From: Gammaproteobacteria bacterium
Lineage (GTDB): Bacteria > Pseudomonadota > Gammaproteobacteria > Burkholderiales > Burkholderiaceae_B
Length of the DNA: 43,239 nt
NCBI GenBank assembly: GCA_018812945.1
Contig: JAHJCM010000136.1
Location: forward strand, 1-43,239
Direction: 5' to 3'
The notes under the pieces were generated by a model, which saw nothing but the letters and a program-made list of their open reading frames with translations, was not told the origin of the DNA and did not search any database. The position numbers and the translations under genes are program-made. Below are positions 7,291-28,529 of this stretch, piece by piece (within the stretch, counting starts at the first letter, position 1; the number at the start of each line of letters is the position of its first letter).

Positions 7291-7998
7291 ATGGAAAATA
7301 TTCAGAAAATTTCTATCTCTGAGCAGGTTTACACCCAGCTTCGCGATCGAATCCTCAAAAAGGTATTACCAGTTGGAGCAGAACTGCCTTCCGAACGGGA
7401 ACTGTCTGAAACGCTGGGAGTTAACCGGGGTGCTGTGCGTGAAGCGATTAAACGCTTGCAACAGGCCCGACTGGTTCGGGTACGCCATGGCGGGGCGACA
7501 CAGGTTGAGAACTTTGAAGCCGAGGGAGGCCTTGAACTGCTGCCAAGCCTGATAGTCAATGCACAGGGGCAAGTCAACCTCGAAGTGGCCCGAGGGATCG
7601 TAGCCTTGCGCAAAGCACTGGCGCCGGTGGTGGCTGGGCAAGCAGCAGTCCATGGCGGCAAGGCACTTGCCGATGCACTGAAGCCGGTGATTGCCAGCAT
7701 GCAAAATACCAGCGAACTGCCAAAACTTCAGCAACTGGCCTTTGATTTTTGGGCCCTGGTGGTGCAAGGCAGCGGCAATGTGGTGTTCAAGCTGGCTTTC
7801 AATTCCATGAATCAAACCTACCCTGCGGCCTGGAATACGCTGACCCTGGTGATGCAGGACGAGTTTCGCGATGTAGACACGCTAACCCAGCTTATGCAGG
7901 CCATTGAAGCTGGAGAACAACGGCGTTGCGAGGTGCTGGCCCGGCAACATGTGGAACTGGGCAGCCGTGCATTGAACGCTGCGCTTGGTACCGCTTAA
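7291..7998 (+). CDS. GntR-family (FadR subfamily, FCD domain) transcriptional regulator
   Basis: N-terminal wHTH LPSERELSETLGVNRGAVREAIKRLQQARLVRVRHGG. Confidence 0.88.
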   Translation: MENIQKISISEQVYTQLRDRILKKVLPVGAELPSERELSETLGVNRGAVREAIKRLQQARLVRVRHGGATQVENFEAEGGLELLPSLIVNAQGQVNLEVARGIVALRKALAPVVAGQAAVHGGKALADALKPVIASMQNTSELPKLQQLAFDFWALVVQGSGNVVFKLAFNSMNQTYPAAWNTLTLVMQDEFRDVDTLTQLMQAIEAGEQRRCEVLARQHVELGSRALNAALGTA

Positions 7999-8645: not shown

Positions 8646-9233
8646 ATGGGCTTGTTGATATTGGTCGCCGGGTTGGCGCTTTTTCTGGGCATGCACGCGA
8701 CTCGAATTCCAGACGACCAACGCCGGTCGGGCATGATTGCAAGGCTTGGCAAAGGGAAGTACCGCGGCATTTACACAGCCGTTTCTATCGTGGGCTTGGT
8801 GCTGATTGTCTACGGATACGGCCAGGCCCGGCTTGACCCTGTTTTTGTGTGGAACCCGCCCGCGGCAATGCGCCACATTGCGGCACTTCTCATGCTGGTT
8901 TCATTCATCATGCTCGCGGCGTGCTATGTGCCCACCAACCACATCAAAGCCAAATTACAGCACCCCATGACCTTGTCTGTGAAAGTATGGGCGCTGGCAC
9001 ATTTGATTGCCAACGGCACCCTGGCCGATATCATTTTGTTTGGATCATTTTTGGTGTGGGCTGTATTGCTGTTTAAAACAGCACGCAGGCGCGCCATTCC
9101 CATGGGTTTTGCGGGCGACGGTCCCACCAAAGTGGGCACACTGATGACCGTGGTGGTGGGTGTACTGGCTTGGCTGGTTTTTGCGGCCTGGCTGCATGTT
9201 CACTTGATCGGTATCAGCCCATTTAGCCGATAA
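8646..9233 (+). CDS. NnrU family protein
   Basis: Multi-TM protein with HATRIPDDQR, GLVLIVYGYGQAR, HLIANG and KARR-type motifs typical of NnrU/MAPEG-like proteins. Confidence 0.8.
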   Translation: MGLLILVAGLALFLGMHATRIPDDQRRSGMIARLGKGKYRGIYTAVSIVGLVLIVYGYGQARLDPVFVWNPPAAMRHIAALLMLVSFIMLAACYVPTNHIKAKLQHPMTLSVKVWALAHLIANGTLADIILFGSFLVWAVLLFKTARRRAIPMGFAGDGPTKVGTLMTVVVGVLAWLVFAAWLHVHLIGISPFSR

Positions 9234-9244
9234 GTAACTGGTGT

Positions 9245-9285
9245 TAAAAAAAGCCCCTGTGTGTTTCGCACAGGGGCTTTTTTAT
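9245..9285. terminator. Bidirectional Rho-independent terminator
   Basis: AAAAAAAGCCCCTGTG-TGTTTCG-CACAGGGGCTTTTTT between convergent genes. Confidence 0.92.
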
Positions 9286-20689: not shown

Positions 20690-20699
20690 TATTGTGCAG

Positions 20700-21032
20700 A
20701 TGGACTACACAATCACTTACTACAGCGAATCAGTCGCAGATGAAATTTTTGCGCTCCCCGATACATTGGCCGCTCGATACATCGTTCTTACACGAAGAAT
20801 GGTAGCGTTAGGTCCAAATCTCGGGGAACCCCACACAAAGGCCTTTGGCGAAGGTTTATATGAGCTTCGGCTTAAGGGTGCAGAAGGGATTGCAAGAGTT
20901 TTCTTTTGCACTCTGGTAGGAAAGCGCATTGTCATGCTGCATAGCTTTGTAAAAAAGTCGACCAAAACCCCGGTGGCAGAAAAGACTGTAGCCCTGTCCA
21001 GAATGAAGGAGATTAAACATGCCAACACATGA
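20700..21032 (+). CDS. Type II toxin, RelE/HigB (phage Gp49-like) family
   Basis: GEGLYELRLKGAEGIARVFFCTLVGKRIVMLHSFVKKSTKTP is typical of HigB/Gp49-like toxins; overlaps the XRE antitoxin gene. Confidence 0.85.
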   Translation: MDYTITYYSESVADEIFALPDTLAARYIVLTRRMVALGPNLGEPHTKAFGEGLYELRLKGAEGIARVFFCTLVGKRIVMLHSFVKKSTKTPVAEKTVALSRMKEIKHANT

Positions 21033-21306
21033 CGAACTTGTTGAGAAATTAATGCAACGGCCTGGCGTACTTGCTGAAGTTGAACGGATTGAACGTGATG
21101 AGTCTTTGCTTCTTGATGCATTGTTAAAAGCGCGGCAGGAAGCAGGTCTTTCCCAAGCACAAGTGGCTGAACGTATGGGAACTCAGGCACCAGCGGTGGC
21201 AAGGCTTGAGCGATCCCTTGCAACAGGGAAACACTCGCCTTCTGTAGCAACACTGCGCAAGTATGTTCAAGCCTGCGGCAAACGTTTAATTTTGCAGGTT
21301 GCATGA
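21019..21306 (+). CDS. XRE-family antitoxin (HigA-like)
   Basis: HTH ARQEAGLSQAQVAERMGTQAPAVARLERSLATGKHSPSVATLRKYVQACGKRL; 14-nt overlap with the toxin. Confidence 0.87.
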   Translation: MPTHDELVEKLMQRPGVLAEVERIERDESLLLDALLKARQEAGLSQAQVAERMGTQAPAVARLERSLATGKHSPSVATLRKYVQACGKRLILQVA

Positions 21307-21331: not shown

Positions 21332-22567
21332 CTAGATCGGCCTCTGCACTTTCAACATGGCCTGCTGCGCCCGCCCAGCCATTTCCGTGCTGAACTGAGC
21401 AAGAATCCAGTGCAGGGTTTGAATGGTGAGCGCTGTGCCGCTGATCGGTGCACGCCCCAGAAAATCAAGCATGGAATTCACAATGGTGAACACATCCTCA
21501 ACCAACAACTTGCTGGCGTTTGCGGCTTTCACCAACACTTCTGAAAGCAGATCTGCCGCTGTAACGGCAAGGCTTAATCCACCCTGTACTGTGACCAGGT
21601 AGGCGTATCCCATTGAGCGCAACACCTGCTCGGTCAGTTTGCCCACCAGGTCGAGCAGCTTGGCATTGAACATGCCACCGCCACCCAGTTTCGCAAACTC
21701 TCGGGACAAATCGGTGTACTGCGACAAGCCATGCGGCATGGGGGAAAAATCGCTCCAACTGCTGCTGTAAGCCATTTTGGAATAACCGCTGTGCAACAGG
21801 TGCGCATCAATACCCACCTTCTCGCCATGCCGTGTCAATAATTCAGAAGACCCGCGCGAGGCGTGCATGTAAGGAAACAAAGGCACCATGGGCACTGGGT
21901 CGCAGGGGTTGGCGATGCGCCGAATTTGGCCGGGTGCAATTTGCTTGGTGATGTCCTGCGCATAGCTAACAATACCCACACGTGGCGCGCCAATGGTGTA
22001 AAGGCAGACATTGAAACCCGCGTCGCGCAACATACAAGCATTTAAATTGGCCAAGGCACCGCCCAGGCTGTGGCCCATGCAGTGAATGGTACTTGGCCGC
22101 TTGGCACCACCTTGCGATACAAAATTCACCAACTGGCTTTGGTAGCTTTTAAAGGTTTTTAGAAACCCACGGTGAACCACATTGCCGCGCGGGCCGATGC
22201 CGTAGCCGATGTTTGCGTTGGTTGCCAAATCGAACTTGTTGTGCTGGAAGTTGGTGCCGCGTGTAACAAGAACCAGCTCGTTTGCGCGGCTGCCAGTACC
22301 GTGTGCGACGAAGCCGAAACCGCTGAGGAGGTCGATGTTGAAGATGCCGGATCGGCCAGAAATCATTGTGACTTGCTTACCGTATACCTCATCGACATCC
22401 AAAAGTTCTTTACCGAGCCTGGCCGCAGCCATATTCCTAACGCTTGCAATAGACGCAGTCGGATTCATTTTTCTTGTGTCGCGAAATAAAAAATCTGCCC
22501 GGTACACGACATCTGACAAACTGTGAACCAGACTAGGTGGCAATAGGAGTTGATTGTGCTGACTCAT
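21332..22567 (-). CDS. Class 3 lipase-family protein without evident signal peptide (candidate secreted or T6SS-type lipase effector)
   Basis: Nucleophile elbow CMGHSLGGALANLNA; LVTRGT; Asp in NPCDPVP; candidate His in HLLHSGY; hydrophobic C-terminal segments. Confidence 0.82.
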   Translation of the reverse strand: MSQHNQLLLPPSLVHSLSDVVYRADFLFRDTRKMNPTASIASVRNMAAARLGKELLDVDEVYGKQVTMISGRSGIFNIDLLSGFGFVAHGTGSRANELVLVTRGTNFQHNKFDLATNANIGYGIGPRGNVVHRGFLKTFKSYQSQLVNFVSQGGAKRPSTIHCMGHSLGGALANLNACMLRDAGFNVCLYTIGAPRVGIVSYAQDITKQIAPGQIRRIANPCDPVPMVPLFPYMHASRGSSELLTRHGEKVGIDAHLLHSGYSKMAYSSSWSDFSPMPHGLSQYTDLSREFAKLGGGGMFNAKLLDLVGKLTEQVLRSMGYAYLVTVQGGLSLAVTAADLLSEVLVKAANASKLLVEDVFTIVNSMLDFLGRAPISGTALTIQTLHWILAQFSTEMAGRAQQAMLKVQRPI

Positions 22568-22571
22568 TTAT

Positions 22572-23075
22572 TCAGTTGCCCCCACGCTTCATCTTTCTAA
22601 CCTTGCAATCCAAACTTGGCAGCACCCCATTGATAAGCTCTCGCGACGAAAGGTCGCAACTAAACTGAATTTCATCGTAACCAGTTTCAAATTTAGGCTC
22701 GTATGAACTTCGGGTCTTCGAATACAAAATAATTTCTTCGTTTGCTTGGATCAAATAAATCTCTTGGGAAATAACAGGCACATGAAAAAGCTTGGCTAGA
22801 AACCCAAACTCTACTGCACCGCGCACCTCTGGAAACTGAAACTTGCCGTCCGCCTTCGTGGTGGTTATTTCTGTTCGAGCCTCTTGCTCCATATTCCAGT
22901 GAAGAACTCTTTTCACTTTCACTCCAGCCAAAGGTTTACCGTGATCAAGTAATTGACCCTCTACCGCAGAGGACAGAACGAGGTTGTCTTGCCACACGGC
23001 ATGAGCTCCTTGAGAGAAAGAGAGAAGAAAGATGGCGTAGGCGGAAAACAGCCATCTACCGAGGTTTGGTCGCAT
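22572..23075 (-). CDS. Putative periplasmic protein, Ig/transthyretin-like fold (possibly DUF6795-like); candidate immunity B
   Basis: Start ATG 23075 gives signal peptide MRPNLGRWLFSAYAIFLLSFSQGAHA; strongly similar to the adjacent ORF; 4-nt gap to the lipase start. Confidence 0.72.
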   Translation of the reverse strand: MRPNLGRWLFSAYAIFLLSFSQGAHAVWQDNLVLSSAVEGQLLDHGKPLAGVKVKRVLHWNMEQEARTEITTTKADGKFQFPEVRGAVEFGFLAKLFHVPVISQEIYLIQANEEIILYSKTRSSYEPKFETGYDEIQFSCDLSSRELINGVLPSLDCKVRKMKRGGN

Positions 23076-23207
23076 AGAGTTGTGATGCGTTTTGATGGAA
23101 AGCGAACACACTATCAGACCTGTAAAGCCACTCAAAAAATCACTTATTCGGGTAGCTCTAATTGATTAGGTTGTTCAGCGTTGCAACTGATACATGCGAA
23201 AAATGAC

Positions 23208-23732
23208 CTAGTCATACTTTCTGTTTTTTATCTCTTCAGTCAACTCAACCTCACACTCACCTACAGGCAGCAATTCATCCTCAACAGAACGACTTTTTAA
23301 ATCGCACGAGATCTGAATTTGGGGGAAACCTGTTTCCCCGTGGCCCTGGTAAGAACTGCGCCCATTGGCGTAGAACAAATAATCCACGCCATCCACAGGC
23401 ACATAGATTCGGATGGATATGGTGGGCACATGGAAAAGCTTCGCCAAAAATCCAAATTCAGCAGCGCCCCTTACTTCGGGAAATTGAAAATGACCGCGTT
23501 CACTCGTAAAAGTAATTTCAGTGCGTAGCTCGGCGTCCATATTCCAAAAGAGCACCCGCACCACTTTTGCCCCGACTACAGGCTTTCCTTGGTCAAGCAA
23601 TTGACCACTAACCGCCGAGGACAACAACAGGTTGTCCTGTCGAACAGTTTGAAACAGGCTCAAATCCCAAGTTGTCAGAATTAAGTAGGGAACAGAGAGA
23701 AATCCCAGAAGTACAAAGTAACGTAAACGCAT
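23208..23732 (-). CDS. Putative secreted or periplasmic paralogue of the preceding protein; candidate immunity A
   Basis: Start ATG 23732 gives MRLRYFVLLGFLSVPYLILTTW; shared QDNLxLSSAVxGQLLDxGKP...FQFPEVRGAxEFGFLAKLFHVP block. Confidence 0.72.
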   Translation of the reverse strand: MRLRYFVLLGFLSVPYLILTTWDLSLFQTVRQDNLLLSSAVSGQLLDQGKPVVGAKVVRVLFWNMDAELRTEITFTSERGHFQFPEVRGAAEFGFLAKLFHVPTISIRIYVPVDGVDYLFYANGRSSYQGHGETGFPQIQISCDLKSRSVEDELLPVGECEVELTEEIKNRKYD

Positions 23733-23873
23733 GTGCGGGTTATCTTCCAAGGCAAGGACCCAACACTAGCAGAGGCGATTGGATGCTCAAAAAAGTGGCT
23801 TACTCAAGTCACTCACAGGGGGTAGAACCAATGCCTTAATCCAAAATTCACTTCTTATGCCTAAAAAACCAGG

Positions 23874-23947
23874 TTTTTTTAACATGAAACCACTATCATG
23901 TTAAAAAAATCGAATATTTTTAACACGTTGCAGGTGTCATGTTAAAA
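23874..23947. promoter_or_regulatory. Array of four TTTTTAACATGA/TCATGTTAAAAA half-sites upstream of, and overlapping, the fic start codon
   Basis: Perfect 14-nt arms TTTTTTTAACATGA (23874-23887) and TCATGTTAAAAAAA (23896-23909), then TTTTTAACACG (23917-23927) and TCATGTTAAAA (23937-23947). Confidence 0.75.
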
Positions 23948-25027
23948 GCAAGCTACAACATTCCCCCAATGCCGCCCCCTGAGTTTAATCAGGACGATCC
24001 CGCCATTTTGAAAGCCTTGGCTGCAGCGCACAGGCATCTTGCAGAGCTAAAGGGCTGTGCCAAAAGCATTCCCAATCAAGCAATCCTGATTGACACCTTG
24101 ACACTCCAGGAAGCTAAAGCCAGCTCTGAAATTGAAAGTTACGTTACCACGCAAGACGAACTCTTTCAGGCTGATTTGCAACTTGCTGACTGGGTATCGC
24201 CAGCCAGCAAGGAGGTATCGCGTTATCGGGAAGCCTTGAAATATGGTTTTGCGAAAATGCAAGCCAATCAAGGCCTACTTACCAACAGCACATTAATCGC
24301 GCTATTTCAATTATTAAAGAATAGCGCTGACGGTTTTCGTCACATGCCGGGCACTGTGCTTAAAAACGATCGAACAGGTAACACGGTTTTTGTTCCGCCG
24401 CAGAGTGCCAATGAAATTCAGCAACACATGGACCATCTGGAGCGCTTTATCAATACGCCAGAAGATGTTGATCCTCTGATTAAAATGGCGCTTATTCACC
24501 ATCAGTTCGAGAGTATTCACCCATTTAGTGATGGCAACGGGCGAATCGGCAGAATATTGTGCGTGCTGTATCTGACGCAAACAAGCTTGCTGGATATCCC
24601 GATTCTTTATCTTTCCAGATACATCAATCAGAACAAATCCGATTACTACCGACTTCTTCAAATTGTAAGAGACCAAGGTCAATGGCATGAGTGGGTGTTA
24701 TTCATGCTGCAAGCAGTAGCGGTGACAGCTAGAAGCACTGTGGACTTGGTAGAAGGTATGCGTGTGTTGATGGCAATTACCAAACAGAAAATGAGAAAAG
24801 AACTTCCGAATCTTTATTCGCAAGACTTGCTCAACAACCTTTTCAGGCACCCGTATACCCGAATCGAATTTGTGCAAAACGACCTGGGTGTTTCACGTCA
24901 AACAGCAGCGAAGTATTTACGCGAACTTGTTAGCAAGGGAATTGTTCTGGAACACGCGCAAGGTAAGCATGTTTATTTCATCAATCAGCCACTTGTGAGT
25001 TTGCTGAGTCAGGACGAAATTCAATAG
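23939..25027 (+). CDS. Fic family protein (class II-like, N-terminal inhibitory helix) with C-terminal winged HTH
   Basis: HPFSDGNGRIGR Fic motif; inhibitory helix-like EAKASSEIES; C-terminal NDLGVSRQTAAKYLRELVSKGIV. Confidence 0.93.
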   Translation: MLKASYNIPPMPPPEFNQDDPAILKALAAAHRHLAELKGCAKSIPNQAILIDTLTLQEAKASSEIESYVTTQDELFQADLQLADWVSPASKEVSRYREALKYGFAKMQANQGLLTNSTLIALFQLLKNSADGFRHMPGTVLKNDRTGNTVFVPPQSANEIQQHMDHLERFINTPEDVDPLIKMALIHHQFESIHPFSDGNGRIGRILCVLYLTQTSLLDIPILYLSRYINQNKSDYYRLLQIVRDQGQWHEWVLFMLQAVAVTARSTVDLVEGMRVLMAITKQKMRKELPNLYSQDLLNNLFRHPYTRIEFVQNDLGVSRQTAAKYLRELVSKGIVLEHAQGKHVYFINQPLVSLLSQDEIQ

Positions 25028-28086: not shown

Positions 28087-28224
28087 ACTCAATAAAGCGG
28101 AGTAACATTAAACCGGCTCAACTCCACTTTGGAGACACTCGAAGCCTGATGAATTACATCCAGAATTGAACCGCCCTTCCACAAAATCCACTAAGTTATA
28201 GCAGCGCATTCGACTATTAATGCG

Positions 28225-28243
28225 TGTTGCGCAATACGCAACA
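28225..28243. promoter_or_regulatory. Inverted repeat TGTTGCG-CAATA-CGCAACA, candidate HigA operator
   Basis: Perfect 7-bp arms, 7 nt upstream of the toxin ATG. Confidence 0.55.
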
Positions 28244-28250
28244 TTCCACT

Positions 28251-28529
28251 ATGATCCTATCTTTCAAACACAAAGGGCTTCGCAAGTTCTTTGAAATTGG
28301 CAGCACCGCTGGCATTCAGGCAAATCATGCTAAACGCCTTCGCTTACAACTGGCCGCTCTGGATACCGCTGAGACCATCAACGATATGGACATTCCAGGC
28401 TTTTCACTTCATCCGCTCAAGGGCGAAATGCGTGGAAGGTGGTCTATATCAGTGAATGGTAACTGGCGCTTAACTTTTGAATTTCGTGATGGCAACGTCC
28501 ACGTGCTGGACTATGAGGATTATCACTAA
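28251..28529 (+). CDS. higB: Type II toxin, RelE/HigB family
   Basis: MILSFKHKGLRKFFEIGSTAGI...HPLKGEMRGRWSISVNGNWRLTFEF...VLDYEDYH is the canonical HigB signature. Confidence 0.93.
   Translation: MILSFKHKGLRKFFEIGSTAGIQANHAKRLRLQLAALDTAETINDMDIPGFSLHPLKGEMRGRWSISVNGNWRLTFEFRDGNVHVLDYEDYH

Follow-up and report, generated by a model that had tools for sequence, protein, structure and literature searches.

An array of five half-sites, alternating in orientation, runs up to and over the start codon of a fic gene in the window, the whole stretch of 43,239 nucleotides of Limnobacter DNA analysed here. The array is probably (we put the probability at about 0.85) the operator of a self-regulating anti-phage Fic toxin of the SoFic type, which would bind it through its own C-terminal winged helix-turn-helix (wHTH) and thereby repress fic.

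Judged by its sequence, the gene in this Limnobacter is a SoFic-type fic, and Sofic is a single-gene anti-phage system (PMC12249575). The domains Fic_N, Fic and SoFic-like_C follow each other in the 362-aa product, all three above the Pfam gathering score; the PADLOC SoFic model was matched over residues 9-358 (1e-116), and the protein is 41-42% identical to SoFic. Its AlphaFold2 model (mean pLDDT 90) gave TM scores of 0.88-0.91 to SoFic crystal structures. The winged-HTH-like C-terminus proposed in a preliminary description of this DNA was confirmed by the Pfam SoFic-like_C domain and by helices 295-303, 309-316 and 320-332 and wing strands 337-341 and 344-348 of the model; from its position, the third helix (320-332) is predicted to be the recognition helix. 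The following features were assigned to the gene:

23939..25027, + strand: fic gene, SoFic-type protein adenylyltransferase with C-terminal winged helix-turn-helix, 362 aa (Pfam, PADLOC, structure model)
24122..24139, + strand: class II inhibitory motif region SSEIES, residues 62-67 (alignment; E66 invariant)
24518..24553, + strand: FIC catalytic motif HPFSDGNGRIGR, residues 194-205 (alignment; fits HPFx[D/E]GN[G/K]RxxR)
24896..24934, + strand: predicted recognition helix, residues 320-332, Q321 codon at 24899-24901 (AlphaFold2; residue 321 has the strongest half-site covariation)
24947..24982, + strand: wing strands, residues 337-348 (AlphaFold2 model)

Compared with the inhibitory motif (S/T)xxxE(G/N), SSEIES has the glutamate (E66) and ends in Ser, where most relatives have Asn. 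The same fic locus is present in the same-genus genome G005 and in Limnobacter litoralis (L003, L034). Only a 20-aa + strand ORF lies between fic and the next gene, hence no candidate for a small downstream antitoxin like AS1 of EcSofic was found there. It was observed that the - strand stretch adjoining fic (21332-23750) encodes a Lipase_3 protein and, after it, a related pair of DUF6795 proteins, a layout that resembles an effector with immunity-like genes, and that the flanks are rich in toxin-antitoxin genes (a Gp49-like toxin/HTH antitoxin pair at 20694-21306, a HigB-like toxin gene at 28224-28529).

A scan with the half-site model placed the array at 23856-23950, in a strict 18/23-bp register with a 41-bp period. 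Counted from the fic ATG, the first positions of the 13-mers are -83 (+), -65 (-), -42 (+), -24 (-) and -1 (+), that is, with offsets of 18/23/18/23:

23856..23868, + strand: half-site 1, degenerate, TATGCCTAAAAAA (exactly in register, 18 bp ahead of half-site 2; shared with orthologue L002, which is 92% identical)
23874..23886, - strand: half-site 2, CATGTTAAAAAAA as read on the - strand
23897..23909, + strand: half-site 3, CATGTTAAAAAAA
23915..23927, - strand: half-site 4, CGTGTTAAAAATA as read on the - strand
23938..23950, + strand: half-site 5, CATGTTAAAAGCA, whose ATG is the fic start codon (L002 is arranged likewise)
23856..23886, no strand: tail-to-tail unit A (half-sites 1 and 2), 31 bp (start offset 18 or 19 in 129 pairs of relatives)
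23897..23927, no strand: tail-to-tail unit B (half-sites 3 and 4), 31 bp, 41 bp from unit A

The preliminary description had counted four half-sites. All four are in place: the perfect 14-bp inverted repeat TTTTTTTAACATGA (23874-23887), N8, TCATGTTAAAAAAA (23896-23909) is exact in letters and coordinates, the second pair TTTTTAACACG (23917-23927), N9, TCATGTTAAAA (23937-23947) is present as written, and the fic ATG (23939-23941) does lie inside the last half-site. The count fell one short, as the degenerate half-site 23856-23868 is also in register.

In an array test that looked for four mutually matching alternating 11-mers with a 40-42-bp period, the fic array scored 60 out of 66, compared with a maximum of 42 in 1000 dinucleotide-preserving shuffles and with 39 for the second-best position in the 43-kb window, of which it is the only such array. 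In the 3.09-Mb host genome (assembly about 92% complete), the dyad TTAACATGA-N8-TCATGTTAA was found only as the two fic dyads and at one place with three mismatches, and a reversed control pattern gave as many matches as this single place. A wider Fic regulon was therefore rejected within this assembly. A consensus promoter scan of the array region found no sigma-70-like promoter on the + strand; its two matches, both on the - strand, did not exceed the number found in shuffles. About 100 bp separate the array from the gene upstream of it, which is divergent. Elsewhere in the window, a perfect 14-bp inverted repeat with a short spacer occurs once (AAAAAAGCCCCTGT..., 9247-9283), and is probably a terminator.

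Homologous fic genes were checked for the motif, as the preliminary description had advised. We gathered 214 loci and kept the 198 with non-redundant upstream DNA, and the array proved to be conserved in orthologues. Among 177 non-redundant relatives, 116 had an array only 5' of fic, 27 only 3', 3 on both sides and 31 on neither side (none detected), which gives 119 with an array 5' of fic and 30 with one just 3'. By their record titles, the carriers belong to Proteobacteria, Bacteroidota, Chlamydiota, Verrucomicrobiota and others. For SoFic-type fic genes, arrays of at least four alternating half-sites are normal, and not unusually elaborate for a fic gene as had been thought.

In the branch of the window (n=144), the top upstream direct repeat had a 40-42-bp period in 74 loci, where about 5 were expected, and the alternating-half-site test gave z >4 upstream in 87/144 loci and in 0/144 mid-gene controls. 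The SoFic/EcSofic branch (n=37) has upstream periods of 30, 40 and 70 bp, and the 30/40/70 version of the same test detected 31/37 loci (control, 3/37). Among more distant Fic-HTH proteins (n=17), 31 bp was the commonest upstream period; L014-L023, L031 and L032 (Fic-HTH, about 30-37% identical) show this period of about 31 bp, and their half-sites, of the kind CATTAAAGAA, may represent a third type of operator. Half-site pairs of relatives are 18-19 bp apart when tail-to-tail (129 cases) and 22-23 bp when head-to-head (92 cases); half-sites therefore recur in alternating orientation about every 20.5 bp, which is two helical turns, with a consensus unit of roughly YATGTWWARAAAAT-N3-ATTTTYTWWACATR. 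The letters of the half-sites vary between loci, but the period remains 40-42 bp (in the SoFic/EcSofic branch, 30/40/70). As in the window, the array of the EcSofic gene is upstream and runs to the ATG: it is a long series of ATGTCGAT and TGTTTA half-sites (L216, taken as EcSofic because a stretch of its protein, compared by eye, agreed with the 9VJC chain). In E. coli S10 (L215, 2532-3607), the annotation gives fic as frameshifted; the array upstream of it seems undamaged, and the next gene is another member of the Fic family. A Vibrio vulnificus plasmid (L213, 920-1030 and 1880-1985) has long 8-bp tandem repeats (ATTGAGTA) just in front of parA and in front of a small ORF; these are simple repeats that mimic array scores and are unrelated to Fic sites.

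The half-site letters are shared within a locus and change between loci. A code relating them to the recognition helix, V-S-R-X-T-A with X corresponding to residue 321 in the window, the second residue of that helix, was derived from the 116 loci that have at least three in-register half-sites. Gln at X went with TTA or TTC (19/21 loci), Leu, Ile, Val or Met with TAT (TATA; 37/51), Pro with TAA (TAAA; 7/9) and Lys with GGT (GGTA; 2/2); HRN (His-Arg-Asn) went with CAC (CACA) in 5/5 loci and H.Q with TCG in 2/3. In the SoFic branch (.RQ), TCG was found in 19/24 loci, as TCGA when the next residue is Thr and mostly as TCGC when it is Ala. Fisher tests gave p values of 6e-11 for Gln with TT and 8e-12 for Leu/Ile/Val/Met with TAT, and when every residue of helix and wing was compared, unsupervised, with half-site positions 5-9, residue 321 ranked first, with z values of 16, 11 and 10 for positions 7, 6 and 5 (near the top for position 5), all these values being inflated by relatedness. 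In tree-independent pairs that differ, all changes had the same direction (about 4.6:0, 4.5:0 and 5:0, none against). The wHTH columns had been left out of the tree used for this, and none of the tests can reach 0.05 singly (they stop at p 0.06).

The rule was fixed before being applied to 59 unused loci, nearly all from Bacteroidota and partly related to each other. Arrays were present in 45/59, and the class was predicted correctly in 28/41, compared with a mean of 11 and a maximum of 20 in 5000 permutations; errors were mostly confusions of TATA with TAAA. Viral contigs, tried as an independent test set, provided only 7/80 SoFic-like matches. Q321 and the TTA half-sites of the window fit the rule. 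Conservation of the array in orthologues, together with the covariation between half-site letters and helix, makes it very probable that Fic binds these sites and that its own C-terminal wHTH reads the letters.

In type II toxin-antitoxin systems such as Phd/Doc, the toxin locus is repressed by its own product at multi-site operators, and the antitoxin carries the DNA-binding domain; here, in contrast, toxin and DNA-binding domain are in one protein. CccR of Yersinia pseudotuberculosis is, like the window protein, a Fic enzyme with a C-terminal HTH, and the promoter of its gene likewise contains inverted repeats; these were footprinted, and through them CccR represses that promoter (PMC9755527). 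It has a single pair of 10-bp repeats (inner ends ATCAT...ATGAT) 26 bp apart, in contrast to the five phased half-sites with 18/23 offsets in the window, and its identity to SoFic is low (29% over 45%; PMC9755527). CccR is secreted by type VI secretion, whereas no core T6SS domain was found among the neighbour genes Pfam-scanned in the 10-28 kb part of the window. CbFic2 of Coxiella burnetii also combines Fic with a wHTH, binds DNA and dimerises on it (PMC10628234); it differs in having no known specific site (random DNA was used), a distant sequence and a reported action on histone H3. SoFic (Shewanella) and EcSofic (E. coli; PDB 3EQX, 3ZCN, 9VJC) share domain order and fold with the window protein, and form a sister branch with half-site ATGTCGA/C and periods of 30/40/70 bp instead of 41; no operator for them is reported in PMC12249575 or in the 2023 paper compared.

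From the array, its register, its conservation and its covariation, all of them read in sequence, we infer physical binding, cooperativity, repression and a purpose as follows. The C-terminal winged helix of Fic would read CATGTTAAAAA as its half-site, TTA being specified by Q321, at the start of the recognition helix; Fic dimers would fill the half-sites, one about every 20.5 bp between about -83 and the start codon, and once on the array would repress fic transcription, so that the toxic AMP-transferase is kept scarce. A spacing of two helical turns puts all half-sites on one face of the DNA, which suggests cooperative filling. Because the array extends from -83 to the start codon and CccR represses itself (PMC9755527), autorepression of fic is the most likely outcome. 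Tight control would make sense, as cloning of wild-type EcSofic proved impossible with a single lac operator (PMC12249575). The preliminary description had proposed cooperative autorepression that also blocks initiation. Conservation and covariation support the part of this proposal that concerns binding by the protein's own wHTH; a separate block of initiation was not upheld. A half-site overlaps the start codon in a minority of relatives, so that a separate translation block is neither needed nor claimed, and a special role of the overlap was rejected, only 8 loci having the offset of the window.

The 27 relatives with a 3'-only array and the 31 without a detected array are counterpoints to an operator of fic, and an operator of fic alone leaves the 3' arrays unexplained. 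Such arrays lie directly behind the fic stop codon in L194/L220 (from about 10430 in L220), L063, L064, L065, L076, L101, L127, L128, L179 and L212; they and the 5' arrays are almost mutually exclusive, L223 having both (7456-7600 and 8805-8920), and in some of these loci the next gene is convergent. The fic gene abuts the upstream gene in 12/27 loci with a 3'-only array and in 9/118 others (p 2e-5). Part of this association is trivial, since there must be room for a 5' array, and abutment was rejected as an explanation, 15 loci being left over. Another arrangement that would place arrays on either side of fic, rarely on both and sometimes before a convergent gene, is one in which Fic dimers bound to the array are kept inactive or de-AMPylating, the DNA acting as 'antitoxin' besides or instead of repression, until the bound state is lost, for example by phage attack on the DNA, and active toxin is freed. 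The distant CbFic2 lends it some support, since it dimerises on DNA with raised de-AMPylation (PMC10628234). We consider it unlikely: most arrays are exactly in the promoter region, the regulatory and toxic activities of CccR are reported to be independent (PMC9755527), and one array per cell would hold few molecules.

It is more doubtful still that the Fic-read array mainly regulates the adjoining gene, such as a restriction gene, with autoregulation secondary. The type I restriction locus of L220 (6482-12001, with L194) has the order hsdM-hsdS-fic-array-hsdR, which suggests Fic control of hsdR at that locus, and hsd genes adjoin fic in 35/181 loci. In the window, however, the genes downstream of fic (from 25266) are not restriction genes and the upstream gene is the divergent one; moreover, hsd was detectable in 6/28 loci with 3' arrays and in 20/121 with 5' arrays, no higher a proportion, and type I restriction operons were rejected as a general cause of 3' arrays. 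Use of the array by another host-encoded DNA-binding protein is very improbable, given that the letters track the recognition helix of Fic in different phyla as well as in held-out genomes and that the sites occur only at fic in the host genome. Just as improbable is an action as RNA after the manner of type III toxin-antitoxin systems, with tandem hairpins as inhibitors of the toxin. Tandem palindromic repeats do precede a toxin gene, and the pairs could fold as RNA hairpins, one of them flagged as terminator-like; yet near-whole-turn spacings (20/21 and 41; 30/40/70; 31) and wHTH covariation suit duplex DNA, 3' arrays exist, and, unlike the repeat upstream of a ToxN-type nuclease, these repeats track a wHTH helix and the toxin is a Fic enzyme. 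The array region is AT-rich, which speaks for a chance origin, but chance was rejected outright, with 0/1000 dinucleotide shuffles reaching the score and a register common to relatives.

Self-repression by a Fic-HTH protein is already known from CccR. In the open-access literature, which was the scope of the search, neither operator arrays nor a recognition code were found described for SoFic-type proteins; an earlier report elsewhere is possible. According to the 2023 paper, DNA binding by SoFic was yet to be demonstrated, and the point is not taken up in the 2025 EcSofic paper. The control of Sofic toxicity is called an open question in the literature (PMC12249575). A proposed operator found family-wide, with a simple code, makes this control directly testable, as it names a binding site and a contact residue, and it suggests an enzyme that acts as repressor of its own gene. 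On a broader and rather speculative view, the SoFic-type family would combine an evolvable code, set mostly by one residue, with helically phased arrays that serve both as gene switch and as a DNA 'antitoxin' holding the enzyme inactive; if true, this double role would account for arrays on either side of fic. The family offers a natural data set in which a winged helix has repeatedly switched its DNA target together with its sites, with dozens of natural variants of predicted specificity.
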